From: Acidobacteriota bacterium
GTDB taxonomy: Bacteria; Acidobacteriota; Vicinamibacteria; Vicinamibacterales; CAVVIG01
DNA: 32,170 nt
Assembly: GCA_025358945.1 (NCBI GenBank)
Contig: JANYHS010000008.1
Span: 1 to 32,170 of the forward strand
Direction of reading: 5' to 3'
Shown here: positions 3,537-29,978 of the stretch, in pieces
Position numbering within the stretch: position 1 is the first letter of the stretch
Layout: every line of letters starts with the position of its first letter
The notes under the pieces: generated by a model
Database searches by the model: none
What the model was told of the DNA's origin: nothing
Seen by the model: only the letters and a program-made list of their open reading frames with translations
Program-made: the position numbers and the translations under genes

Positions 3537-4943
3537 ATGGGTCGAATTCTTGTTGCGGATGATCATGATGCGCTGCGCCGCGGACTCGTACGCGGCCTGA
3601 CCGATGCCGGCCACGAAGTTCAGGAGGCGTCCAACGGCAACGCCGCCATCGAGAAACTGCACGACAGCTATTTCGACGTCGTGCTCAGCGATCTCAAGAT
3701 GGGCGGCAGCGACGGGATGGACGTGCTGCGGACGACGCGCGCCATGCATCCGACCACGGCCGTGATCCTGATGACCGCATTCGGCTCGGTCAACACCGCC
3801 GTCGAGGCGATGAAAACCGGGGCGTTCGACTACGTGCAGAAGCCGTTCGAGATCGAGGAGATGGAGGTCAAGATCGAGAAGGCGCTGGAAATGAAGCGCC
3901 TGAAGAACGAGATCGAATACCTCCGCGGCACACAGCAGGACATTTACGAGTTCGACAAGATCGTCGGCACCAGCGCCGCCCTCCAGCACGTCCTCGACAT
4001 CGTCAAGAAGGTGGCGAAGAGCAACACCACCGTGCTGATCCGCGGCGAAACGGGTACGGGCAAGGAGCTGATTGCGGGCGCCACGCATCACAACTCCCTG
4101 CGCAACAACCGCAACTTCGTGAAAGTGAACTGCGCCGCGCTGCAGGAGAACCTGCTCGAGTCCGAATTATTCGGCCACGAGAAGGGCGCGTTTACCGGCG
4201 CCGACAAGCAGCGGATCGGGCGCTTCGAGCAGGCGGACGGCGGGACGCTGTTCCTCGACGAAATCGGCGACATGAGCCCGAGCACGCAGGCGAAAATTCT
4301 GCGCGTGCTGCAGGAGCACGAATTCGAGCGGCTCGGCGGCACCCGCACGCTGCGCGTCGACGTGCGGCTGATCGCCGCGACCAACCGCGACCTGTCGCAG
4401 ATGGTCCAGTCCGGACAGTTCCGCGAAGACCTCTACTACCGGTTGAACGTGGTGTCGATCGAGATGCCGCCGCTGCGCGAACGCAAGGACGACATCGTGC
4501 CGCTGGCGCTGACCTTCATCCGCAAGTTCGCCGGCGAACTGAAGAAGAAGATCGACGGGCTCGAACCCGAAGCGCAGAAGCTGCTGATGCGCTACAACTT
4601 CCCCGGTAACATCCGCGAGCTCGAGAACACCATCGAGCGCGCGATTCTGCTGGCTGAAGGCAAGGCGATCGCCGCGATCGACCTGCGGCTGGGCGAAGTG
4701 GCGAGCCTGGGCAGCTCGCGCGAACACGCGTCGGTGGTCAAGATTCCGCCGACCGGCATCCCGCTGGAGGACATCGAACGTCACGCGCTCGTGGAAGCGT
4801 TGAAGATGTCGAACTGGGTGCAGAAGGACGCCGCGGAACTGCTGTCGATCAGCCCGCGCGTGATGAATTACAAGATCAAAGTACTGGGCATCGAGTTCCC
4901 GCGCGGCCGCCGCGCCGCGCCGCTGGTCGCCGCGGCCAGCTGA
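3537..4943 (+). CDS. Sigma-54-dependent response regulator (NtrC family)
   Basis: 468 residues in the standard NtrC order. The receiver domain (1-120) has the acidic pair DD at 8-9, phosphoacceptor Asp52 (VVLSDLKM) and Lys in QKPF. The AAA+ domain has Walker A GETGTGKE (170-177), the sigma-54-contacting loop GAFTGA (217-222) and Walker B GGTLFLDEIGD. The C-terminus is a Fis-type helix-turn-helix (QKDAAELLSISPRVMNYKI). It activates transcription by remodelling sigma-54 holoenzyme after phosphorylation by the adjacent kinase. The HTH reads SPRVMNYK where SRRALRYK-type sequences are usual, so the recognition helix is somewhat divergent. The targets are unknown; the promoter in front of the kinase is one candidate. 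It is the last gene before the accessory island. Confidence 0.95.
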   Translation: MGRILVADDHDALRRGLVRGLTDAGHEVQEASNGNAAIEKLHDSYFDVVLSDLKMGGSDGMDVLRTTRAMHPTTAVILMTAFGSVNTAVEAMKTGAFDYVQKPFEIEEMEVKIEKALEMKRLKNEIEYLRGTQQDIYEFDKIVGTSAALQHVLDIVKKVAKSNTTVLIRGETGTGKELIAGATHHNSLRNNRNFVKVNCAALQENLLESELFGHEKGAFTGADKQRIGRFEQADGGTLFLDEIGDMSPSTQAKILRVLQEHEFERLGGTRTLRVDVRLIAATNRDLSQMVQSGQFREDLYYRLNVVSIEMPPLRERKDDIVPLALTFIRKFAGELKKKIDGLEPEAQKLLMRYNFPGNIRELENTIERAILLAEGKAIAAIDLRLGEVASLGSSREHASVVKIPPTGIPLEDIERHALVEALKMSNWVQKDAAELLSISPRVMNYKIKVLGIEFPRGRRAAPLVAAAS

Positions 4944-5028
4944 TCACGAAATTCACGAAAGGAACGAAGCACACGAAGAAGATCGATCTCTTTTTTGTGC
5001 TTTTCGTACGCTTCGTGTGTTTTCGTGA
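4944..5028. repeat. Long imperfect palindrome, CACGAAA/TTTCGTG type (left edge of island)
   Basis: The left arm TCACGAAATTCACGAAAG...CACACGAAG pairs imperfectly with the right arm CTTTTCGTACGCTTCGTG...TTTTCGTGA. It starts directly after the ntrC-like stop codon, so the transcript could form a long hairpin, with TTTTTT near the centre. A repeat of the same style lies at 10047-10105 on the other side of the accessory genes. Confidence 0.65.
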
Positions 5029-5051
5029 CAACACGATCTGTCCGGCAGGGT

Positions 5052-5079
5052 GTGATACTGTATTCACTACAGGATTCAC
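5052..5079. promoter_or_regulatory. Candidate operator/promoter of the toxin-antitoxin operon
   Basis: GTGATACTGTATTCAC is an imperfect inverted repeat (GTGAaTAC style) and a further ATTCAC half-site follows 12 bases after the first. GATACT could serve as a -10 element. RHH antitoxins commonly bind such half-sites just upstream of their own gene. Seen by eye only. Confidence 0.25.
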
Positions 5080-5082
5080 CTT

Positions 5083-5313
5083 ATGCCCGTCCGTCTCAAC
5101 ATCACCATCGACGAAGACGTTCACGACCGTCTCAAGCGTGAATTGCCGGCCAAAGGCATCAGCCGATTCATCAATGCGGCGATCCGGGCGCAGCTGCACC
5201 CCTCCCGCAAATCGCTCGACGAGGCATACCGGGCATCGGCAGACGAACGATCGCGGACGGCCGAAAGCCACGCTGACTGGAACGCCACCGAGATCGAAGG
5301 ATGGCCCGAGTGA
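5083..5313 (+). CDS. Ribbon-helix-helix type antitoxin
   Basis: A 76-residue protein. The N-terminus VRLNITIDEDVHDRLKREL...GISRFINAAIRAQL reads as a beta strand followed by two helices, the ribbon-helix-helix DNA-binding fold. The acidic C-terminal tail (DEAYRASADERSRTAES...) is suited to wrapping a MazF-type toxin. Its stop lies 13 bases inside the next gene, so the two are translationally coupled, as in type II toxin-antitoxin pairs. It probably neutralises the toxin and represses the operon. The assignment rests on the fold pattern plus the neighbour, not on a recognised subfamily. Confidence 0.8.
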   Translation: MPVRLNITIDEDVHDRLKRELPAKGISRFINAAIRAQLHPSRKSLDEAYRASADERSRTAESHADWNATEIEGWPE

Positions 5314-5648
5314 GCCGGCCCCCACGGCGGGGCGATGTGTACTGGGTGAACCTCGACCCGGTTGTGGGCACCGAAATTCGCAAGACCCGCCCTGCGGTCA
5401 TCGTCTCGAACGATTCCTGTAACCGCTACGGCACGCGCGTCGTGGTGCTGCCGATCACCAGCAACGTCGATTCCTTGTATCCGGGCGAGGCCTCAGTGGA
5501 GGTGAAGGGGAAACGCGGACGCGCGTTGGGTGATCAGATCCGGTCGATCGACAAAATCCGTCTGAAGGCGCGAGTGACCACGCTGACGGCCGGCGAAATG
5601 GCCGACGTCGATGAAGCGCTAGCCGTCACGCTTGCGCTCCAGCGGTAG
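5301..5648 (+). CDS. mazF: MazF/PemK-type endoribonuclease toxin
   Basis: A 115-residue protein of the usual MazF length. It carries the family pattern RGDVYWVNLDPVVGTEIRKTRPAVIVSN near the N-terminus, VVVLPITSN in the middle and the basic stretch GRALGDQIRSIDKIRL, where the catalytic Arg and the dimer interface lie. MazF toxins cut mRNA at short sequences. ATG 5301 overlaps the antitoxin stop by 13 bases. The pair is the first element inside the accessory region between the ntrC-like gene and xerC, and may be addictive cargo that stabilises the island. It appears intact. Confidence 0.93.
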   Translation: MARVSRPPRRGDVYWVNLDPVVGTEIRKTRPAVIVSNDSCNRYGTRVVVLPITSNVDSLYPGEASVEVKGKRGRALGDQIRSIDKIRLKARVTTLTAGEMADVDEALAVTLALQR

Positions 5649-5677
5649 CGCCGGACGCGACATCAATCCGCAAGAAA

Positions 5678-5705
5678 GAACGCAGAGACAAGATTCTCTG
5701 CGTTC
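5678..5705. repeat. Perfect 11-bp hairpin downstream of mazF
   Basis: GAACGCAGAGA-CAAGAT-TCTCTGCGTTC is a perfect inverted repeat with a 6-base loop, 30 bases after the mazF stop. No T-run follows, so it is not a classical intrinsic terminator. It resembles the other short palindromes scattered through this genome and could still stabilise or end the mazF transcript. Confidence 0.7.
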
Positions 5706-6328
5706 AAGCGTCAGCAGGAGTACTGATTGAGTGTTATCGGACGCCGAATACGCCAAGATCGAACGCCCCTTGAGCTTCCGTAAATTGTAGACGGCAAAGC
5801 TTCAGAGTCAACGCCGAAAACGGATGGATGTGGTGATTCAGGGGACCGCTTTCGCCGCCAACCGCAACTTGCTGCCCGCGAATGGGATAGGAACCCTCGA
5901 GGGCGATGCGCGCTCCGGCCGCACGCCGTGCATCCCGAAATGTTTCAGCGCTTCACCAGATTTCGATCGAAACCGCTCACGGAACGTGGCTCGCTACACC
6001 TTTTTCGAACGCCGATCTTGTGGCGCTCCCGATTGAAGCCGGCCGCCGAGCAGCGTAGAATCGCGCGGGAAGGCCCGGCGAAGGGTCGGGGGCTGTTGGA
6101 TGGTTGGGCCGGCGGTCGCCGGTACACTTTCCCTGGTTGCGGGCGGTTGGCTCGGATAATCACTACGGTCTCAGGGCAGTACGGGCTCTGTGCGAAGAGT
6201 GAGGTCCGTTCACTACCTCCGCGAACCCGCGTATTCGGCCGCGTCTGATCAACGCGGTAAGCTCCCGCCTCCGCTTCGTCACAATCTGCCGTTCACGGAG
6301 ATCAGCAGGCTCACCTCACGGCCCGCGC

Positions 6329-6341
6329 CTCGGAGGCCGAG
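6329..6341 (+). promoter_or_regulatory. Ribosome site of the HTH gene inside a small hairpin
   Basis: CTCGG-AGG-CCGAG forms a 5-bp stem over the GGAGG Shine-Dalgarno sequence, ending 2 bases before the ATG at 6344. It decides the start choice and could limit translation. The short stem may also be chance in G/C-rich DNA. Confidence 0.35.
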
Positions 6342-6343
6342 CC

Positions 6344-6784
6344 ATGCCCCGCTGTTCGCCTCGTCATCGTCTGCAACACCTCGCAAGAGTCGCCGATCAC
6401 GACGGCGCCGCGCGCCAAATCACCGTCGCCAAACGCAACGGCCGTTACGCCATCGCCGTGTCGGCGCCCGGCGATAACGAGCCGACATCCGCCGAGCCTG
6501 GAGTCGCTGACGCGTCCGCGGCCGACCGGCGCGAGCGCCTCGAACGGATGGTCGACAGCGGTCGATTCACCACGACGGAGCTTCGCACTCTGCGCTGCCT
6601 TATCGTCGAGCAGCTCACGATCCTCGAAATTGCCGCGCGCGAGCGTTGCACACGCCAGGCGATCGTCGCCCGCCTCGTCGGCAATTCCAAGGGGCAAGGT
6701 GGCCTGGTCCGCAAGGCCGACCGCTTCTGGCGCGAGTGGGAGGAGGCGTTGCCAGTCCTACCTGCCGTCGTCCCTCATGAGTAG
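6344..6784 (+). CDS. Small helix-turn-helix-like protein, first gene of the RT-Cas1 operon
   Basis: A 146-residue protein I cannot assign to a family. Residues 1-70 are low-complexity. Residues about 75-130 (FTTTELRTLRCLIVEQLTI then LEIAARERCTRQAIVARL) look like a helix-turn-helix of the sigma region 4 / Trp-repressor kind, followed by a basic aromatic helix (VRKADRFWREWEEAL). The ATG has a strong Shine-Dalgarno site, GGAGG at 6332-6336, 7 bases upstream. A 5-bp hairpin (6329-6341) covers that site. The stop lies 6 bases before the RT-Cas1 start, so the genes are almost certainly co-transcribed. It may regulate the operon or bind nucleic acid for it; this is inference from fold pattern and position. 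Confidence 0.7.
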   Translation: MPRCSPRHRLQHLARVADHDGAARQITVAKRNGRYAIAVSAPGDNEPTSAEPGVADASAADRRERLERMVDSGRFTTTELRTLRCLIVEQLTILEIAARERCTRQAIVARLVGNSKGQGGLVRKADRFWREWEEALPVLPAVVPHE

Positions 6785-6790
6785 GACGAC

Positions 6791-9124
6791 ATGACGGCGA
6801 CCAGCACGGAAACCGCGGCTCCCCTGATCGAGGCGATGGCGCAGCCCCACCGCCTGCGCGACGCCTGGTTCCGGGTTCGCGCGGCCGCCGGCGCGCCCGG
6901 CACCGACGGCGTGTCCGTCGAGGTCTTTCGGCGACAAGCCGAAACGCGACTCGCCGATCTTCAGCGCTCGGTGGAGTCGCGCTCGTACGCGCCCAGTCCA
7001 TTACGGCAAGTGCGAATCCCGAAAGCCGCCGGCGGGTGGCGGCTTCTGGCCATCCCGACCGTGACGGATCGAATCGTTCAGACGGCCTGCGCGCTAGTGC
7101 TGCAAGACCGCCTGGCCTCGTCGTTCTCGGATCGCAGCTTTGCCTATCGTCCATTTCTCGGCCCACGTCGCGCCGCGCTGTACCTCTCGGGACGATTGTC
7201 ATCGGCGACGCACGTCGTGACCGCCGATATCGAGAAATTCTTCGACAACGTGGAGCATCGGCTCGTCGCGCAGCAGTTGAGCGCGCAGGGCGTCGATGAC
7301 GAGGGTGTCGCATTCGTGTTGCGATAGCTGCGTGCGCCGATCGTCGAGGGCGCCACCAAACTGCATCCCCTTAAAGGTATTCCTCAAGGCGCCCCGGTGT
7401 CGCCGGTGCTCGCCAACCTGTTTCTCACCGGATTCGACCGCATGCTGGAGGCGGCGGGCCGCGAGCACGTGCGCTACGCCGACGATTTCGTCGTCCTCGC
7501 ACGCACCCAGCCGGATGCCGAAGAGGCGCTGCAATCGATCGCCGACTACCTTCGCGTACATCTGCAGCTCGCGCTCAAGACGCAGAAGACGCAGTACGTC
7601 ACCGTCGACGAAGGCTTCACCTTCGTCGGCTTCAGATTCACGAATTCGTCGTGGCTGGTGCCGGAGGCGTCGCTCGACGAGTTCAGATCCAGAATCGGCG
7701 CGATCCTCGCGGACCGGCGCCGCGAACGGGTGTTCGACGCCGCCAAACAGCACAACGACCTGGTCCGCGGCTGGCGGAACTACTACGGCGGCAACTCGCC
7801 TGAGATGGACAGGCAGCTCGAAGTTCTCGAGGCATGGCGAAGCGTTTCGGGCAACGCGTACTTGCAGGCGGTCGGCGCTGATTCGGTCCTGGGCCGGTCC
7901 GCGTTCGAGAGCCTGACCAGCTCGTTTACCACTGCCGGCCCCCGCGGTTCGTACACGGACGATCGTACACCCAGCAGCTCGTTCGAGGACCTCGGCTGGC
8001 CGTCGGACGACCCCTGGCGAGGCGGCGAGGCGGTTGCGGTGACGCGCCCGGCACGAGCCCATTCCACACGAACGCAACTCCGCGTCCACGATGTCGCGTC
8101 ACGTCAGCGGCCGTCGATCCTCTTCGGACGTTTGCTTCGCATACCGACGTATGGTGCGTTCGTCACGCACACGGGGCCAATCCTGGTCGTCCGCCGGAAA
8201 AAGCAAACCATCTTCGAATGCCCGTTCGACGACGTGGGGCACGTCAGCATTGAATCGGACGGCGTGTGCGTATCGACCCGTGTACTGAGCCAATGCGCGC
8301 GGCGACGGATTTCGGTGACCGTGTCCACCTCCTCCGGCCTTCCGGTGGTACGCATTCTGCCGGTGCGCTCGGAGCTGAAACCCGGGTTGGCGGAGCGGCA
8401 GCTCCTCGCTCGCCTGACGACGGACGGAACCGGGATCGCGCGCGCCATCCTGTCGGCGAAGATTGCGAATCAGCGAGCGCTCCTGCTCTATCACGCAAAG
8501 TATTCCAAGCGCGACGACGACGTTCGCGCGTCGCTGAAATCGGCCGCGGCGGACTTGCGGTCGCTCCAGGCCAGAATCCGGACGGTCACCGGAACGTTGT
8601 CGTCGATGCGCACGCCGCTGTTCCTCGCGGAAGCGAGGGCGGCCGCACGTTACTGGAGCGCCTTCGCGATGGCGATTCCGCCCGCCGCGCAATTCACCGT
8701 TCGCCGCGGACGCGGCGCGACCGATCTCGTCAACAAACTCCTCAACTTCGGATACTGGTCGCTCCACCTGCGGGTGCGACACGCCATCGAGCACGCGGGG
8801 CTCGATCCCTCGATCGGCCTGCTGCACACCAGCCGCCGGAAAACCCCCGGGTTGGTCTTCGACGCGATGGAGGAATTCCGACAGCCTCTCGTGGATCGCG
8901 TCGTCCTCTCCCTGGTGGGCCGGGGCAGCCGACTCGAGCTCAACGACCGCGGCGACCTCACGTCGCACACTCGAACCCTCGCCCAGCGTGCCTTCGCCCG
9001 CGCGCTGGAGCGACGCGACGACAGCAGGCACAGCATGCTTGCCGTCATCCATCGACAGGCTCGAGCGCTCGCTCGCGCCCTCGACACCGGATCCACCTAC
9101 GAGCCCTATCGGTCCCTGTGGTGA
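6791..9124 (+). CDS. cas1: Reverse transcriptase-Cas1 fusion, interrupted by one in-frame TAG
   Basis: One continuous frame of 777 codons broken only by TAG at 7325-7327 (codon 179). The N-terminal half is a group II intron-like reverse transcriptase: APGTDGVSVEVF (35-46), RLLAIPTVTDRIVQ (84-97), motif A TADIEKFFDNVEH with Asp146, GIPQGAPVSPVLAN (196-209), motif YADD (229-232), LKTQKTQY, and a GWRNYYG helix (327-333) as in maturase/thumb regions. After a linker (about 350-435) comes Cas1: a beta-rich N-terminal part (GPILVVRRKKQTIFECPFDD) and the integrase core with Glu614 (FLAEARAAARYW), His679 (GLLHTS) and Asp691/Glu694-695 (FDAMEEFRQPLVDR). RT-Cas1 proteins of type III CRISPR loci take spacers from RNA. 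The Cas2-like start overlaps this stop by one base (TGATG). If TAG is not read through, only a 178-residue fragment lacking motifs B and YADD results. The downstream open frame could start at GTG 7397 but would lack the PQG motif. Confidence 0.9.
7325..7327 (+). other. In-frame amber codon between RT motifs A and B
   Basis: The frame reads ...FVLR-TAG-LRAPIVEG... and both sides align with RT sequence without shift or loss; related RTs commonly have Trp or another residue here in a 'WL.AP' pattern. TGG or CAG to TAG needs one base change. Neighbours such as the kinase, mazF, the HTH gene, the TPR and lipoprotein genes, obgE and the STAS gene end in TAG, so TAG is a working stop in this genome. 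Confidence 0.9.
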
Positions 9125-9381
9125 TGGTCCTCGCCGTGTACGACGTGGCGACTCTCGCCGCAAGAAAGAGAGCGGAGCGCGTCCTGCGTCAGGCGAACTT
9201 CGTGTTTCTATTCGGCAATATGCGGTGGGCCAGCAGAACGGTGGACCTGGCCCTGCTGAAGCGTCGCCTGCGATCGGCGCTGCGCGGAGACGCCTATCGC
9301 ATTCTGCTGCTTGAAATACCCGTTGGCTCGATCGAGCATGCAGCATGGCTGCACGGCTCCTTTCGCGGGAGACCTGAATGA
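9124..9381 (+). CDS. cas2: Divergent Cas2-like protein
   Basis: An 85-residue protein, close to the usual Cas2 length. It begins MVLAVYDV, matching the first strand of Cas2 with its conserved Asp (residue 7). A helix follows (LAARKRAERVLRQ), then FVFLFGNMRW where Cas2 normally has a Q-SVF strand, a helix (LALLKRRLRSAL) and a last strand YRILLLEIP. The order fits the ferredoxin-like fold of Cas2, which bridges two Cas1 dimers in the spacer integrase. ATG 9124 overlaps the RT-Cas1 stop by one base; its own stop overlaps the next start by four (ATGA). The SVF-type motif is not conserved, so the call rests on length, the YD strand and position. Confidence 0.7.
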   Translation: MVLAVYDVATLAARKRAERVLRQANFVFLFGNMRWASRTVDLALLKRRLRSALRGDAYRILLLEIPVGSIEHAAWLHGSFRGRPE

Positions 9382-10016
9382 GACTGCAGGTGGTCGCGTT
9401 GTATGCCGGACGGATCGCCGAGGCGCTCGGCCAGCCGGGGGTCAAGGAGCGGAAGAGAAAGGGAGGAAGCTGGACCCAGATCGCGTGCGAGCTAATCGCA
9501 TCGGATACGGTGACCAAGGCCAGGCCCGTGCACGCGCCGGCGAACGGTCCTCAGCCGCAATTCCGGATGCAGCTCGAGTTGACGAAAGCCTCGGACGCCG
9601 GCAAGGTGGTGGCCGTGGTCCTGCCCGAAGAGTCACAAGGCGGCGATCCCGAGCAACACGTGCTCGCGCCCATCTACAATAACGGGCGGCGCGTGCTCTT
9701 CGAGTTCCAAAAGGCCGACATTCTTGTCGTCAGCGCCGACGGGCTCGCCGAGTTGCGGCTGGTCGTCGTTCATCCACTCACGGGCGAGGTCGGCACGAAG
9801 ACAAAGTACGTGTTTCACGCTCAGTTCGTGAAGTTGATGCTACGCTGCCAGGCGCACCTCGCGGGATCGATCGATCTCTTTCCGGCACTCGACCGCGCGA
9901 CCTCGAAGTTCAAGAATGTCCGAGTGCCGGCGGGTCGCGCCAACCTGGATCCCAAGCCCGCGATTGAATTCGGTCACGTCAAGACCGACCAGCGCAACAG
10001 TGCGGGTGCAAAATGA
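9378..10016 (+). CDS. Unknown protein coupled to the RT-Cas1/Cas2-like genes
   Basis: A 212-residue protein I do not recognise. It starts inside the Cas2-like stop (ATGA), so it belongs to the same translationally coupled operon. The sequence looks soluble and mixed alpha/beta: a short helical N-terminus (VVALYAGRIAEALG), a basic loop (KERKRKGGSW), several strands in the middle (KVVAVVLP, RRVLFEFQKADILVVSA, AELRLVVVHP), a helix with FVKLMLRCQAHL, and a basic C-terminal tail. No metal-binding cluster, P-loop or known nuclease motif is visible. No membrane segment or signal peptide. By position it may be an adaptation partner, a nucleic-acid-binding factor or an effector; none of these is shown by the sequence. 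It is the last gene before the right-edge palindrome. Confidence 0.8.
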   Translation: MRLQVVALYAGRIAEALGQPGVKERKRKGGSWTQIACELIASDTVTKARPVHAPANGPQPQFRMQLELTKASDAGKVVAVVLPEESQGGDPEQHVLAPIYNNGRRVLFEFQKADILVVSADGLAELRLVVVHPLTGEVGTKTKYVFHAQFVKLMLRCQAHLAGSIDLFPALDRATSKFKNVRVPAGRANLDPKPAIEFGHVKTDQRNSAGAK

Positions 10017-10046
10017 TGGCAGGCGTGGCGACCACCTGAGCATTTC

Positions 10047-10105
10047 GCCACGAAAACACGAAAGAGATCTCGGTGTCTTTTTCGTGTCTTCCGTGCTTTC
10101 GTGGC
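10047..10105. repeat. Long palindrome, CACGAAA/TTTCGTG type (right edge of island)
   Basis: GCCACGAAA at 10047 pairs with TTTCGTGGC at 10097-10105. Inside, ACACGAAAGAGAT pairs imperfectly with TCTTTTTCGTGTCTT. It ends on the first base of the xerC stop codon and lies between convergent genes, so it may act as a two-way terminator. It is the same style as the repeat at 4944-5028. Confidence 0.65.
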
Positions 10106-11025
10106 TAGTTCTTCGCCCTTGGATGACTCTTCTGGTAAACCTCGAGCAGCTGCGCCGAGTTCACGTGGGTATAGCGCTGCGTCGTGCTGAGGCGGGCGTG
10201 GCCGAGCAGTTCCTGGATCACGCGCAGGTCGGCGCCGCGCTGCAGCAGGTGCGTCGCGAAGGAGTGGCGCAGCGCGTGCGGGCTGATCCCTAGCCGCGCG
10301 CTGCTGACGGCGACGTAGCGGCGCACGAGCCGGTCGATGCTGCGCACGGTCAGCCGGCCGCCGAGGTAATTCACGAACAACGGGTCGCGCGCCCGGCGGC
10401 CGCGGGCTTTCATCTGCACCAGCAGCTCGCGATCGGGCCAGTAGGCGCGGATCGCACGCGCCGCCGTCTTGTTGAACGGCACGATCCGTTCCTTGCCGCC
10501 CTTGCCGAGCACGCGCACCATGTTCGCGCTCAGGTTCACATCGTCCACGTCGAGCCCGGCGAGTTCACTCAGGCGCAGGCCTGACGCGTAGAACAGCTCG
10601 AGGATGGCGCGATCGCGGCGGCCGAACGGTGTGTCCGTCGAGGGCGCCTCGAGCAGCGCGGTCATTTCGCTTTCCGACAGATGTGCCGGCATGCGGATGT
10701 CGCGCTTCGGCGTCGCCACGAGCGCGCCGGGGTCGTCGGCGATCAGATCCTCGCGGAGCAGGTAGCGCAGAAACGTCCGCGCCGCCGCGAGCTTGCGCGC
10801 CGCAGACGCGCGCGACTTGCCCTGCTTGTGCAGGTCGCCGAGGAAGCCGCGCAAGGCGATCCGATCCAGCTGCGCCGGCGCAAGATCGCGCACCTTCACA
10901 CCCGCACCGGCGGCGGCATGTGCGAGGAACTGCGTCAGATCGCTGTCGTAGGCGCGCACGGTGTGCGCCGACGCGTTGCGGTTAAGCGCGAGAAACTGCA
11001 GAAACGCTTTGAGATGTGCGGTCAT
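10105..11025 (-). CDS. xerC: Tyrosine recombinase XerC
   Basis: 306 residues from ATG 11025 (MTAHLKAFLQFL...), the usual XerC length. A longer frame to 11091 exists but adds only an Arg-rich, unlikely N-terminus. An N-terminal SAM-like core-binding domain (HTVRAYDSDLTQFL) is followed by the catalytic domain with the full tyrosine recombinase set: Arg in ASGLRLSELAGL, Lys in GKGGKERIVPF, HALRHSFATHLL (His and Arg), His in LLGHARLSTTQRYTHV and the Tyr nucleophile in the same motif. It resolves chromosome dimers at dif together with XerD. The start overlaps the end of trmFO by 44 bases, giving an operon topA-trmFO-xerC. All catalytic residues are present, so it is a housekeeping gene and not a phage integrase, although it abuts an island. 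Confidence 0.93.
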   Translation of the reverse strand: MTAHLKAFLQFLALNRNASAHTVRAYDSDLTQFLAHAAAGAGVKVRDLAPAQLDRIALRGFLGDLHKQGKSRASAARKLAAARTFLRYLLREDLIADDPGALVATPKRDIRMPAHLSESEMTALLEAPSTDTPFGRRDRAILELFYASGLRLSELAGLDVDDVNLSANMVRVLGKGGKERIVPFNKTAARAIRAYWPDRELLVQMKARGRRARDPLFVNYLGGRLTVRSIDRLVRRYVAVSSARLGISPHALRHSFATHLLQRGADLRVIQELLGHARLSTTQRYTHVNSAQLLEVYQKSHPRAKN

Positions 11026-12472
11026 GGACCCACTCCTGCAGATCGGCGAGCGCGCGCGCCGACAACGCCTCGTTGCGCGCCTTCTTGCCACGCGGCGCCT
11101 TGCCGGCCCCGAGCCTGGAGGGGTCCAGCGCCTGGATGATCCCGAACGTGATGTTCGACGGCTCGTAGTGCGCCGGGTTGGCGTGCGACACGTAATACGC
11201 GAGGGCGCCGATGGCCGTCGTGCGCGGGGGGGATGATACCGGCTCGCCCTTGGCCAGGGCGGCCGCGTTGATCCCGGCGAGCAATCCTGACGCCGCCGAC
11301 TCTACGTACCCTTCAACACCAGACATCTGCCCCGCGAAGAACAGCGTGGGACGCGAACGCACTTGCCACGTTTCGGCGAGCACGGTCGGGCCGTTCACGT
11401 AGGTGTTCCGGTGCACCATGCCGAAGCGCACGAACTCCGCCTGTTCGAGGCCGGGAATCATCCGCAGCACACGCGCCTGATCGCCCCACTTGATCTGCGT
11501 CTGGAACCCGACCAGGCTGAAATGATCGCCGGCGAGATTGTCCTGACGCAATTGCACTGCGGCGTACGGCTCGCGACCGGTGCGCGGATCGGTGAGGCCG
11601 ACCGGCTTCATCGGCCCGAATCGCAAGGTATCCGGTCCACGGTGCGCCATCACTTCGATTGGCAGACAGCCTTCAAAGAAACGCTCCTTGTCGAAGTCGT
11701 GCACGGTCGCCGATTCAGCCGTCGTCAGCGCGCGGTAAAACGCTTCGTACTCCTCGCGCGTCAGCGGACAGTTCAGGTAATCACCTTCGCCATCGTCCAC
11801 GCCGCACGCGGGGCCGGCGGCCTGCGCCACCGGCGTCATCGCAGGACTGAAGTCCTGCGCCACGGGTGTCCCGGCGGGTGTCATGATGTGGCGCGGCGCT
11901 TCAGCGTTGCGAAAACTCCGATCCCACCGCGACTGACGAAAGACCTTCAAACGATCGATCGACTCGGCGAGGACGATCGGGCTGATGGCGTCGTAGAAAT
12001 ACAGATGCGCCTGTCCGACCACCGAGACAAGGTCTGCTGACAGCGCGTCAGAGGTCAGCGGACCAGTGGCGAGAATCACCGGCTCGCGCTCGCTCGACGC
12101 CGGGATCGACGCGATCTCCTCACGCACGATCGTGATCAGCGGGTGCGCGGTGAGTGTGTCGGTGATGATCTCGGCGAACCGCTCGCGATCGACCGCAAGC
12201 GCCGCGCCCGCTGGCACGCGGCTGGCCTCGGCCGCGCGCATGACCAGCGAATCGAGCCGCCGCATTTCTTCCTTGAGCAGGCCGACGGCGTTGTCGAGCT
12301 TGTCACCGCGAAAGGAATTACTGCAGACCAGTTCGGCGAGCCGATCGGTCTTATGCACGGCGGTGGGACGCACCGGCCGCATCTCGTAGAGCGTGACCGG
12401 CACGCCGCGTGACGCTGCCTGCCAGGCAGCCTCTGAACCCGCGAGGCCACCGCCGACGATGCGAATCGCCAT
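10982..12472 (-). CDS. trmFO: Methylenetetrahydrofolate-tRNA (uracil-5-)-methyltransferase TrmFO
   Basis: 496 residues, somewhat long for the family (about 435-460). It makes 5-methyluridine-54 in the T loop of tRNA, using methylene-THF and FAD. The N-terminus has the FAD-binding dinucleotide motif IRIVGGGLAGSEAAWQAA, followed by YEMRPVRPTAVHKTD and LVCSNSFRGD, typical of TrmFO (Gid). The C-terminal half has LFFAGQMSGVEGYVESAASGLLAGINAA. Extra length comes from an insert near the middle (TPVAQDFSPAMTPVAQAAGP), which is palindromic repeat DNA read in frame (11841-11858). ATG 12472 overlaps the topA stop by one base. The enzyme is typical of Gram-positive bacteria and several Gram-negative phyla that lack TrmA. 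Confidence 0.95.
   Translation of the reverse strand: MAIRIVGGGLAGSEAAWQAASRGVPVTLYEMRPVRPTAVHKTDRLAELVCSNSFRGDKLDNAVGLLKEEMRRLDSLVMRAAEASRVPAGAALAVDRERFAEIITDTLTAHPLITIVREEIASIPASSEREPVILATGPLTSDALSADLVSVVGQAHLYFYDAISPIVLAESIDRLKVFRQSRWDRSFRNAEAPRHIMTPAGTPVAQDFSPAMTPVAQAAGPACGVDDGEGDYLNCPLTREEYEAFYRALTTAESATVHDFDKERFFEGCLPIEVMAHRGPDTLRFGPMKPVGLTDPRTGREPYAAVQLRQDNLAGDHFSLVGFQTQIKWGDQARVLRMIPGLEQAEFVRFGMVHRNTYVNGPTVLAETWQVRSRPTLFFAGQMSGVEGYVESAASGLLAGINAAALAKGEPVSSPPRTTAIGALAYYVSHANPAHYEPSNITFGIIQALDPSRLGAGKAPRGKKARNEALSARALADLQEWVHDRTSQSVSAVSRA
11841..11858. repeat. Palindrome inserted in trmFO
   Basis: GCAGGACT-GA-AGTCCTGC is a perfect 8-bp inverted repeat. The motif CTGCGCCAC also occurs twice around it (11822-11830 and 11854-11862), so the insert looks like a repeat unit of about 30 bases. 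It is translated as TPVAQDFSPAMTPVAQ, which duplicates TPVAQ, without a frameshift. Confidence 0.6.
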
Positions 12473-15212: not shown

Positions 15213-16298
15213 CTAACACGTTCTGTCAATCCGTATGAACCGCCCGCCGCCGGCGCGGCGCACGAGCCCCTGCAGTTCGAGCTCGAAGAGCCGCGGCAGC
15301 AAACGTGACGAACCCAGGCCCGATCGTTCGGAAATCTCGTCGAGATCGGCGGCCTCGCCAGGCACCAGACAGTCGAGCACGGGATCACGCGGGGTCAAAC
15401 CCCGTTCGTCCTCGGCACCCGGGGGTCTGACCCCGCTGACACCGGCGCCGCGGGTCATCCCCAGTTCCTCGAGGATATCGTCCGCAGACTCCACGATCTT
15501 TGCGCCGTCCTTCAAGAGCGCATGGGCGCCGCGGTTGCGGCCGCTCAGCACATTGCCCGGCACCGCCAGCACATCGCGCCCCTGATCGAGCGCGCAGCGC
15601 GCCGTGATCAGCGACCCGCTTTTCTCCCCCGCCTCGATGACGACGACGGCTCGCGACAGCCCGCTGATGATCCGGTTGCGCCGTGGAAAAAACCACGGCA
15701 TCGGCTCTGTCCCCGGCACCAGCTCGCTGACGACGGCGCCGGCGCGGTCGATCTCCTTCGCCAGCGACGCGTGCTCTGGCGGATACAGGACGTCGACGCC
15801 CGATCCGAGGACCGCGACCGTGACGCCGCCGGCGGCGAGCGCTCCGCGATGTGCGGCGGAATCGACGCCGCGCGCAAGGCCACTGACGATCACCAGACCG
15901 CTGGCGGCGAGGTCTCCCGCGAGTTGTTCGGCCACCGACAGCGCGTAGGGCGAGGCCGCCCGCGACCCGACGATGGCGACCGCTGGTGCGCTGAGCGCCG
16001 CGACGCGCCCGCGCGTCCACAACACCGGTGGCGGATCCGCAATCGTCGTCAACGCGACGGGATAGTCCGGATCGTTCCAGGCGATCGCGGTGATCGACGC
16101 GGCCTGCGCGCGACCGACAGCGGTCTCGGCCAGCGAGCGCAGCGCCGGAACGCCGTCCGGCTCCTTGCCCCATCGCGCGGCGAGCAGCCGCCGGACGACG
16201 AGGTCGGATGGATCGCCGCGTCGCAACCAGTCGGCTGCCACCCGCCAGCACCACGGGGGCAGGAGCGACAACGCCACGAAATCCAGAAGTTCACTCAT
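15213..16298 (-). CDS. dprA: DNA-processing protein DprA
   Basis: 361 residues from ATG 16298 (MSELLDFVALSLLP), preceded by GAGG about 7 bases upstream. The longer frame to 16556 is rejected because it crosses the terminator-like leader. The N-terminal helical region is followed by the Rossmann-like DprA fold: YPVALTTIADPPPVLWTRG, VAIVGSRAASPYA, SGLARGVDSAAHRGAL, GGVTVAVLGSGVDVLYPPEH, FPRRNRIISGLSRAVVVIEA, GSLITA. DprA loads RecA on incoming single-stranded DNA during transformation. A C-terminal winged-helix domain (LDEISERSGLGSSRLLPRLFELELQGLVRR) is kept. Between the two lies an insert made by two 13-base palindromes (15391 and 15422), read in frame. The ComF-type gene elsewhere in the window also points to a competence machinery. 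Confidence 0.95.
   Translation of the reverse strand: MSELLDFVALSLLPPWCWRVAADWLRRGDPSDLVVRRLLAARWGKEPDGVPALRSLAETAVGRAQAASITAIAWNDPDYPVALTTIADPPPVLWTRGRVAALSAPAVAIVGSRAASPYALSVAEQLAGDLAASGLVIVSGLARGVDSAAHRGALAAGGVTVAVLGSGVDVLYPPEHASLAKEIDRAGAVVSELVPGTEPMPWFFPRRNRIISGLSRAVVVIEAGEKSGSLITARCALDQGRDVLAVPGNVLSGRNRGAHALLKDGAKIVESADDILEELGMTRGAGVSGVRPPGAEDERGLTPRDPVLDCLVPGEAADLDEISERSGLGSSRLLPRLFELELQGLVRRAGGGRFIRIDRTC
15391..15434. repeat. Paired GGGGTCNNACCCC palindromes inside dprA
   Basis: GGGGTCAAACCCC (15391-15403) and GGGGTCTGACCCC (15422-15434) lie 18 bases apart and are read in frame (GVRPPGAEDERGLTPR region). The second is identical to a 13-mer inside uvrA at 28269-28281. Confidence 0.7.
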
Positions 16299-27137: not shown

Positions 27138-29978
27138 CTACCCTGCCACCGAGCGCACGGGACGACCCCGCTCCTGCGCCAGGAGGTCCGCCAGGAAGCG
27201 TCCAGTGGCCGACAGGTCGTGCTGCGCGACTTCTTCCGGAGTGCCAGCGGCGACGATGCGCCCGCCCGCAGCGCCGCCCTCCGGTCCGAGATCGATGACG
27301 TAGTCGGCCGACTTGATCACGTCCAGGTTGTGCTCGATGACGACGATCGTGTTGCCCTGATCGACCAGCTTCATCAGGACGTCGAGCAGTTTCCTCGTAT
27401 CCTCGAAGTGCAGGCCGGTCGTCGGCTCGTCGAGGATGTAGAGCGTGCGGCCGGTGCCGCGTTTCGACAGTTCCTTCGCCAGCTTCACGCGCTGCGCCTC
27501 GCCTCCCGACAGCGTGGTCGCCGACTGGCCGAGCGCGACGTAGCCGAGGCCGACGCTCTGCAGCGTACGCAGCTTATTGGCGATCGCCGGCAGATTTTCG
27601 AGCAGCGGGGCCGCCTGGTCGACCGTTAGTTCGAGGACGTCGGCAATCGACTTGCCGCGGTATTTGATCTCGAGCGTCTCGCGATTGTAGCGGCGGCCCT
27701 TGCACTGCTCGCACGTCACGTAGACGTTGGGGAGAAAGTGCATCTCGATGGCGATCACGCCGTCGCCCTGGCACGCCTCGCAGCGCCCGCCCTTGACGTT
27801 GAACGAGAAGCGTCCCGGCTTGAAGCCGCGCGCTTTCGCGTCGGGCATCCATGCGAACAGATCGCGGATGAACGTGAACAACCCGGTGTAGGTCGCAGGG
27901 TTCGACCGCGGTGTGCGGCCAATCGGCGACTGATCGATTTCGATCACCTTGTCGATCAGTTCGATGCCCTCCAGGCGATCGTGTTCGCCGGGCTCGTCGC
28001 CGGCTTTGTAGAGCGTCTTGGCGAGCGACTTGTAGAGGATGTCGTTGACCAGCGTCGACTTGCCAGATCCGCTGACGCCGGTGACCGCGGTCAGCAGGCC
28101 CAGCGGGATCTTCACGTCGATGTTTTTCAGGTTGTTCTCGCGTGCGCCGCGGATGACGAGTTCGCCTTTCAGCGCGGGCCGCCGCACAGCCGGGGTTGGA
28201 ATCGCGCGCGCGCCGGTGAGGTACGCGCCGGTCAGCGAAACGGGGTCAGACCCCCGCTGGTCACCCCTGGGGTCTGACCCCGCTGCGGCTGTCGCCATCA
28301 ACTGGCTGGGCGTGCCCTGGAAGATCACGTGACCGCCGAGATCGCCCGCGCCCGGACCGAGATCGATCACGTAGTCGGCCACGCGGATCGTCTCTTCATC
28401 GTGCTCGACGACGATCACCGTGTTGCCGAGATCGCGCAGACGCGCCAGCGTGCCGAGCAGCTTCCTGTTGTCGCGCTGATGCAGGCCGATCGACGGTTCG
28501 TCGAGGACGTACAGCACCCCGGTGAGGTTCGCGCCGATTTGCGTTGCCAGGCGGATGCGCTGTCCCTCGCCGCCCGACAGCGACGCGGCGCTTCGGCCGA
28601 GGCTCAGGTAGCCGACGCCGACGTCGTTCAGAAACCGCAGCCGCTCCTGAATCTCTTTGAGGATACGTTCCGCGATGATCGTCTCGCGGTCGGTCAGCTG
28701 CAGCCCGTTGAACACGTCGAGCGCCTCGACGATCGGCAGGTTGACGTAGTCGGAGATCGTGCGGCTCTTCACCTTCACCGACAGGCTCTGCTGTTTCAGC
28801 CGGTGTCCATGGCATGTCGTGCACGGCCGCAGCGTCCGGAACGCGTCGAGATCGGACTGCTCCGCCCAGCTGCCCTCCTCGTACCGGCGGCGCAGATTGG
28901 GCAGCAGCCCCTCGAACGCCTTGCCGGATCCGGACAGCAGCAGCTCGCGCGACTTCCTCGTCAGGCGCGAGAACGGCACGTCCAGGTCGATCCCGAAGTC
29001 ACGCGACAGCCCGTGCAGCGCGTCTTTGACGAACTTGCGATCGCCTTTCGCCCACGGCACGATCGCGCCGTCGGCCAGCGACTTGCTCTCGTCGGGCACG
29101 ACGCGGTGCGGATCGAAGTCGATCATCGCGCCGAGACCCTGACACTCCGTACAGGCGCCGTGCGGCGAGTTGAACGAGAACGCGCGCGGCGTCATCTCGG
29201 GCATGCTCAAGCCGCAGTCCACACACGCCAGCCGACGCGAGAACAGCCGGTCGCCGCCGTCGAACGTGTTGATGACGACGATGTCATCGGCGAGGTTGAG
29301 CGCGATATCCACCGATTCGGTGAGCCGTTTCTCGACGCCGCCGCGCACGATCACGCGATCGACCACGACCTCGATGGTGTGGTTGCGACGCCGATCGAGC
29401 TTGATGTCCTCTTCAAGGGCACGGAACTGTCCGTCGATGCGGGCTTTCGTGTATCCGCGCACGCGCAGCCCGGCGAGCTCTTTCTTGAACTCGCCTTTGC
29501 GGCCACGGACGATCGGCGCCAGCACGTTGATCCGCTCGTCCTGCGGATACAGCATCACCATGTCGACGATGCGCTCGAGCGACTGGCTGGCGATTTCCTT
29601 GCCGCAGTTCGGGCAGTGGGGCACGCCGATGTTCGCGAACAGCAGGCGGAGGTAATCGTAAATCTCGGTGACGGTGCCGACCGTCGAGCGCGGATTCGAG
29701 CCGGTGGTTTTCTGTTCGATCGAGATCGCGGGCGAGAGGCCTTCAATCAGATCGACGTCGGGCTTCTCCATCTGCTCGAGGAACTGCCGCGCGTACGCCG
29801 ACAGCGACTCGACGTAGCGCCGCTGTCCTTCCGCGTAGATGGTGTCGAAGGCGAGCGACGATTTCCCGGAGCCGGACAAACCCGTGATGACCACCAGCTT
29901 GTGGCGCGGGATGTCGACGTCAATGTTCTTGAGGTTGTGGACGCGCGCGCCGCGTACGGAGATCCATTCGTGGGCCAT
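27138..29978 (-). CDS. uvrA: UvrABC system protein A
   Basis: 946 residues, excision repair damage sensor. Domain I Walker [21 protein letters not shown] and the following [17 protein letters not shown] are unmistakable. Zinc-binding Cys pairs appear in [17 protein letters not shown]...CTECQGLG and CTTCHGHR. Signature motifs are [16 protein letters not shown] and [21 protein letters not shown]. Domain II Walker A is [13 protein letters not shown], with a zinc region [11 protein letters not shown]...CEQCKGRRY. Walker B segments are [15 protein letters not shown] and [15 protein letters not shown]. Between the halves there is an insert (about [24 protein letters not shown]) created by two 13-base palindromes, read in frame (28242-28281). 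ATG 29978. Confidence 0.97.
28242..28281. repeat. Paired GGGGTCNGACCCC palindromes inside uvrA
   Basis: GGGGTCAGACCCC (28242-28254) and GGGGTCTGACCCC (28269-28281), 14 bases apart, are read in frame in the inter-domain linker. The second copy is identical to the one in dprA at 15422-15434. Confidence 0.75.

Follow-up and report, generated by a model that had tools for sequence, protein, structure and literature searches.

Does the small gene directly upstream of an RT-Cas1 fusion in an Acidobacteriota genome encode a helix-turn-helix (HTH) partner of RT-Cas1, and what might such a protein do there? An earlier note on this DNA had proposed that an HTH gene, here called P0001, leads an RT-Cas1 operon and has its ribosome site in a hairpin. 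The window, meaning the stretch analysed at its full length of 32,170 nucleotides, represents an entire draft-genome contig (assembly GCA_025358945.1, contig JANYHS010000008.1). The reading we favour, at slightly under an even chance, is that P0001 is a lineage-specific HTH regulator at the head of an array-less RT-Cas1 module undergoing decay.

Organization of the proposed RT-Cas1 operon

P0001, RT-Cas1, a Cas2-like frame and an unnamed gene, p212, follow one another closely on the forward strand (Table 1). The P0001 stop (TAG, 6782-6784) is followed by six bases and then by the RT-Cas1 ATG at 6791, AGGA lies on that stop, and the two subsequent junctions are overlaps of 1 and 4 bases. Based on this spacing, we infer a four-gene operon whose members would be co-transcribed. 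The six-base gap was read directly as previously described, and the proposal that an HTH gene leads the operon holds with respect to gene order and spacing, the HTH identity of the leading gene being only probable.

Table 1. Coordinates of features at the RT-Cas1 locus.
Feature	Position	Strand	Basis
CTCGG-AGG-CCGAG, 5-bp stem, chance-like	6329..6341	+	direct reading, folding, stem counts
GGAGG, Shine-Dalgarno of P0001, 7 bases 5' of ATG 6344	6332..6336	+	direct reading
P0001 (HTH gene), 146 aa	6344..6784	+	direct reading, translation
Predicted tri-helical HTH, P0001 residues 76-113	6569..6682	+	profile A5, low-confidence AlphaFold2 helices
P0001 tail G113-W132 (GNSKGQGGLVRK...FWREW), partly common to one G086 protein	6680..6739	+	
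AGGA across P0001 TAG, candidate RT-Cas1 ribosome site	6783..6786	+	direct reading
RT-Cas1 fusion, one in-frame stop	6791..9124	+	Pfam RVT_1, Cas_Cas1; translation
In-frame TAG inside RT domain	7325..7327	+	direct reading, translation
Cas1 domain of RT-Cas1	8141..8926	+	Pfam
Cas2-like frame, 85 aa, one-base overlap with RT-Cas1 stop	9124..9381	+	direct reading
p212, 212 aa, unnamed	9378..10016	+	recurs beside RT-Cas1 or remnant
Tyrosine recombinase gene	10105-11091	opposite to p212	Pfam

The RT-Cas1 frame is interrupted by an in-frame TAG, which had been absent from the earlier note. Pfam RVT_1 is matched on both sides of this stop and Cas_Cas1 after it, and the relatives at two other loci (L049 and L050, see below) are open at the same position. 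Past the TAG, 598 codons remain open, including the YADD motif and the Cas1 domain, and the lesion therefore looks recent or may be an assembly error. The interruption of RT-Cas1 may leave the operon non-functional. Among Cas models, PADLOC Cas1_IIIb fits the Cas1 half best. No model matched the Cas2-like frame of the window, its relative at L049 matched PADLOC Cas2 at E 0.0063 and the piece at L050 matched none. Alignment to two true Cas2 proteins using hhalign gave a probability of 2.4 and an E of 0.02. No family match was found for p212 in Pfam, PADLOC or NCBIfam, and it was not found in plasmids or viral contigs. Its structural model is beta-rich with low confidence (mean pLDDT 56), and a PDB fold search with this low-confidence model yielded 0 matches at E 0.001. 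PDB profile searches with the Cas2-like frame and with p212 returned nothing significant.

Several further features surround the operon. A MazF/PemK-like toxin gene is located upstream at 5301-5645 (Pfam E 1.4e-27). On the other side, an imperfect CACGAAA-type inverted repeat, perhaps a terminator or a dispersed repeat, lies at 10040-10105 between p212 and the recombinase gene, which, judging by gene order, is presumably housekeeping XerC. A repeat with the palindrome GGGGTCTGACCCC is present in two copies, at 15418-15449 and 28265-28296.

The ribosome site of P0001 and the proposed hairpin

Direct reading recovered the GGAGG, at a favourable distance from the ATG, and the CTCGG-AGG-CCGAG stretch as described earlier, as well as the HTH-like segment LEIAARERCTRQAIVARL, which corresponds to residues 94-111 of P0001. 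The hairpin itself could not be upheld. A 91-nt stretch (6290-6380) folds with z = 0.15, 104 of 200 shuffles folding at least as well, and in this fold GGAGG is paired with another stretch, not within the reported stem. The shorter stretch 6322-6352 (31 nt) does fold into the reported stem, at z = 0.82 with 153 of 200 shuffles as good. Perfect 5-bp stems with a 3-base loop are frequent, with 80 in the window or 2.5 per kb. The stem is thus no better than chance, and a hairpin acting as a translational switch was rejected on these z values.

Upstream of P0001, a promoter-like site with 9 of 12 positions matched is found at 6033-6061. Two promoter-like sites occur in 5600-10200 compared with 0.5 in shuffles, the second one on the minus strand. 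No operator-type inverted repeat of at least 8 bases was found wholly inside 6012-6420.

Prediction of a C-terminal HTH in P0001

Against Pfam, PADLOC, NCBIfam and PHROGs, P0001 yields no match better than chance; PHROGs lists a D5-like regulator for residues 72-135 at E 0.34. A search of 162 genomes of the order returned 15 weak non-self places in 14 other genomes at E 0.01, with 1.6 expected. Alignments were examined for 8 of these 15, and none but the one in G086 looks like kin; no close homologue of P0001 was found. The G086 candidate (L008) is a 129-aa ORF with the same HTH and a GxGGxVRK tail. It shares 41% with P0001 over the C-terminal alignment and reaches a Smith-Waterman score of 87, the maximum of 2000 shuffles being 63. 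Its match has an E of 0.0028 per genome, and since about 0.5 such chance matches are expected over 162 genomes, kinship is suggestive only. No P0001 homologues were found in plasmids, phages or viral contigs, and the G086 protein was likewise not found in phages or viral contigs and had one plasmid match at E 0.7.

The C-termini of P0001 and the G086 protein were combined into a two-sequence profile, A5. Searched against 162 order and 396 phylum genomes, A5 matched 13 places beyond its two training rows, four in G063 and nine elsewhere; viral contigs gave no match. A Pfam check covered ten of the 13 (a single G063 place plus the nine elsewhere), and in eight of these A5 aligns with a Pfam HTH domain (three TetR_N, three GerE and two HTH_3), the exceptions being L110 and L114. 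All TetR proteins belong to a single genus, and those with GerE to a single family in which the domains are nearly identical, so that about four cases are independent. The TetR matches are driven by the G086 row. Used alone against the eight HTH proteins, P0001 matched five at E 0.19-1.7 (for 1000 sequences), the three TetR proteins being unlisted; non-HTH L110 scored better at E 0.028, and L114 was matched at E 0.24.

AlphaFold2, run on the single P0001 sequence without an alignment, places helices at the HTH positions with a mean pLDDT of 42. In the PDB, A5 matched the UPF0122 protein 1xsv at a non-significant E of 0.81, the matched positions 4-40 being the HTH part. UPF0122 proteins are HTH proteins that presumably resemble sigma-70 region 4. 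Sigma70_r4 was not listed for C-terminal pieces of P0001 within a limit of E 10, at filters that drop most matches above 0.1. A C-terminal HTH in P0001 is likely, not proven: the evidence for it is the recurrence of a weakly matching profile on HTH domains, and no library names the protein.

P0001 homologues at other RT-Cas1 loci

P0001 was searched by tblastn at other loci. No homologue was found at the three loci carrying the same module (L049, L050 and L051; a single match at L051, at E 0.9 and distant from the RT-Cas1 remnant, is attributed to chance), at any of five distant RT-Cas1 fusions (L095, L096, L097, L098 and L127), or at L099-L101 and L128, where Cas1 was not seen fused to RT. 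It should be noted that the full upstream side is visible only at L096, L097, L098 and L127. L049 and L095 cover about 600 bases upstream, so that absence there is not complete, and L050 and L051 lack the RT-Cas1 start. At three loci other elements precede RT-Cas1: a different 119-aa ORF before the RT remnant of L050, a CRISPR array at L095 and an AAA_24 ATPase at L098. The idea of a neighbourhood conserved around RT-Cas1 is thus largely contradicted, and a conserved HTH partner of RT-Cas1 was rejected within the upstream limits of these loci.

Distribution and apparent decay of the RT-Cas1/p212 module

Three other genomes of the order likewise carry RT-Cas1, a Cas2-like frame and p212, whole or as remnants. 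In G159 (L049), RT-Cas1 is intact at 44% identity and p212 is split over two frames. The RT-Cas1 of G101 (L050) is truncated and has lost internal sequence, and in G091 (L051) only a remnant of RT-Cas1 is left beside an open p212. Including the window, all four loci are damaged somewhere, and the flanks of the module differ from genome to genome. p212 is present in four of the 162 genomes of the order and, in the phylum sample, in three of 396 (G101, G091 and the host genome, G000). In a tree of 13 rows, which included six RTs from other loci and the RT-Cas1 fusions L095-L098 and left out L127, the RT domains of the window, G101 and G159 group together at 100/99, separate from the other RTs. 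One Cas1 match each was found in G000 and G159, none in G091 and three on two contigs in G101.

Broader searches returned partial relatives. Nine loci in genome contigs and five in viral contigs were matched by RT-Cas1 through the RT part only (tblastn for the former, with L060 covering 46 residues). The Cas1 domain was found in 37 plasmid records, all below 60% identity. A tblastn search for RT sequences beside Cas1 covered 59 locus records centred on Cas1 matches, several of which overlap and most of which have flanks of 1.5 kb; similarity was seen in L020, L021, L023, L067, L069, L076, L085 and L093, and in the longer loci L095-L098. L098 encodes an RT-Cas1 protein of 1115 aa at 4757-9213 with about 280 extra N-terminal residues, followed by a Cas2b-like frame (E 0.00033) and preceded by an AAA_24 ATPase. 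No array was detected in its 16 kb and no RAMP match in that genome.

CRISPR arrays were sought with a scan requiring three exact 20-mers. No array-like repeats were detected in the window, L049, L050, L051, L098 or L099; the same scan was positive at L095, L096, L097, L100, L101, L127 and L128, and thus at four of the five distant RT-Cas1 fusions (L098 being the exception). A whole-genome test, based on a single repeat ending (TGAAAC) and thus missing other repeats, gave one match in G000 without direct repeats around it, nine in G050, 191 in G273 and none in G159, G101, G091 or G188. RAMP proteins, as type III effectors (PF03787, E 0.001), had 0 matches in G000, G159, G101 and G091, which are drafts of 93-97% completeness; overall, three of eight genomes searched had PF03787 matches.

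Comparison with known systems

The locus resembles type III RT-Cas1 adaptation modules, in which RT is likewise fused to Cas1 and a Cas2-like frame follows directly (see also Toro 2018, PMC6013744). About half of RT-cas loci are reported to be without effector genes, such loci often including a CRISPR array, and RT-Cas1 modules of this kind are described as spreading by horizontal transfer (Silas 2017, PMC5513706). The array is reported to lie within 1 kb in most cases (Toro 2017, PMC5541045). The window and its three sister loci differ from these modules in having no detected array, and p212 and P0001 differ in having no match in the scanned libraries.

The earlier note had held that a regulator at an RT-Cas1 operon is not part of standard gene sets, which is too strong in light of Csa3a, a MarR-like factor that adjoins cas1/cas2 on the opposite strand and activates adaptation genes in Sulfolobus (PMC4333418). 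Csa3a is similar to the role proposed for P0001 in being an HTH-type factor beside cas1/cas2 that controls adaptation genes. As described in that source, it is located on the opposite strand and outside the operon, whereas the P0001 gene heads the operon. Csa3 proteins are described as combining an N-terminal CARF domain with a winged HTH (PMC8699464). In contrast, P0001 has 146 aa, and no CARF match was found for it in Pfam at E 1. Casposons carry a PolB gene and terminal inverted repeats together with a solo cas1. Overexpression of a CARF-HTH protein is reported to induce a casposon cas1-solo gene (PMC7465815), and one further source mentions both RT-Cas1 and helix-turn-helix (PMC6452270).

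Possible roles of P0001

In the reading we favour, P0001 would be a small DNA-binding protein with a C-terminal HTH, encoded by the first gene of the operon. It may bind DNA upstream of the operon and thereby regulate production of both itself and the RT-Cas1 integrase. RT-Cas1, p212 and the Cas2-like frame would form the core: a module of the adaptation type, with no array detected, that occurs in a few genomes of the order and appears to be decaying. The HTH gene would be a lineage-specific addition outside this core, since the core recurs elsewhere without a detectable HTH homologue.

P0001 could also be a leftover of a mobile or integrative element, lodged in front of the RT-Cas1 module without any functional tie to it, which we consider rather unlikely. 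The failure to find P0001 at other RT-Cas1 loci, the variable flanks of the module and the tyrosine recombinase gene after p212 fit such an origin, as does its only candidate homologue, in G086, which lies directly before an ORF with weak matches to TrwB, HerA and FtsK-type ATPases below Pfam cut-offs. However, the six-base spacing and overlapping candidate ribosome site follow the pattern of an operon partner, and no other ORF among the ten scanned with Pfam in the window resembles a transposase or integrase.

It is improbable that P0001 is an integration accessory which, by binding a site on DNA, directs RT-Cas1 together with the Cas2-like protein to a non-array target. Its operon position and the lack of a detected array nearby would suit this function, and an accessory CRISPR factor affecting Cas1 binding and integration is reported in Sulfolobus islandicus (PMC9456107). 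However, no homologue was found at other members of the RT-Cas1 clade, indicating that P0001 is not generally required, and RT-Cas1 is interrupted here.

Finally, P0001 might be a chance open frame in 65% GC DNA. Codon use was scored with nine long ORFs of the window as training set, three of them Pfam-checked. P0001 scores 0.054 per codon, the training windows average 0.376, and only two of 80 such windows score as low. Among 34 spurious ORFs, each lying within a training ORF and no shorter than 100 aa, eight reach the P0001 score, as does its own antisense ORF (0.073), making composition weak support for P0001 as a gene. All eight are antisense, however, and none of seven same-strand spurious ORFs reaches it (-0.27 to -0.62). 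The undoubted Cas2-like and RT parts of the operon also score low, its genes other than P0001 spanning 0.012 (Cas2-like) to 0.156 (p212). The sense frame is favoured by the ribosome site and the operon junctions, and the likeness to the G086 protein also counts against a spurious ORF, whereas the lack of a certain homologue would fit one. We regard a spurious P0001 as improbable.

If P0001 is just a local regulator, as in the reading we favour, it would be an ordinary accessory, and the RT-Cas1/p212 module is of more interest than the HTH gene. We regard it as unlikely, yet worth stating, that RT-Cas1, the Cas2-like frame and p212 constitute a distinct array-independent RT-integrase module that inserts copies of nucleic acids elsewhere, with p212 as a dedicated third protein and the HTH added here to control or aim it. 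An array-less RT-Cas1 clade with p212 was not met in the literature searched and may still have been published. An RT-Cas1 clade in which an unnamed partner recurs, and in which neither an array nor a RAMP protein was detected, would offer a test of whether RT-Cas1 works outside CRISPR memory.
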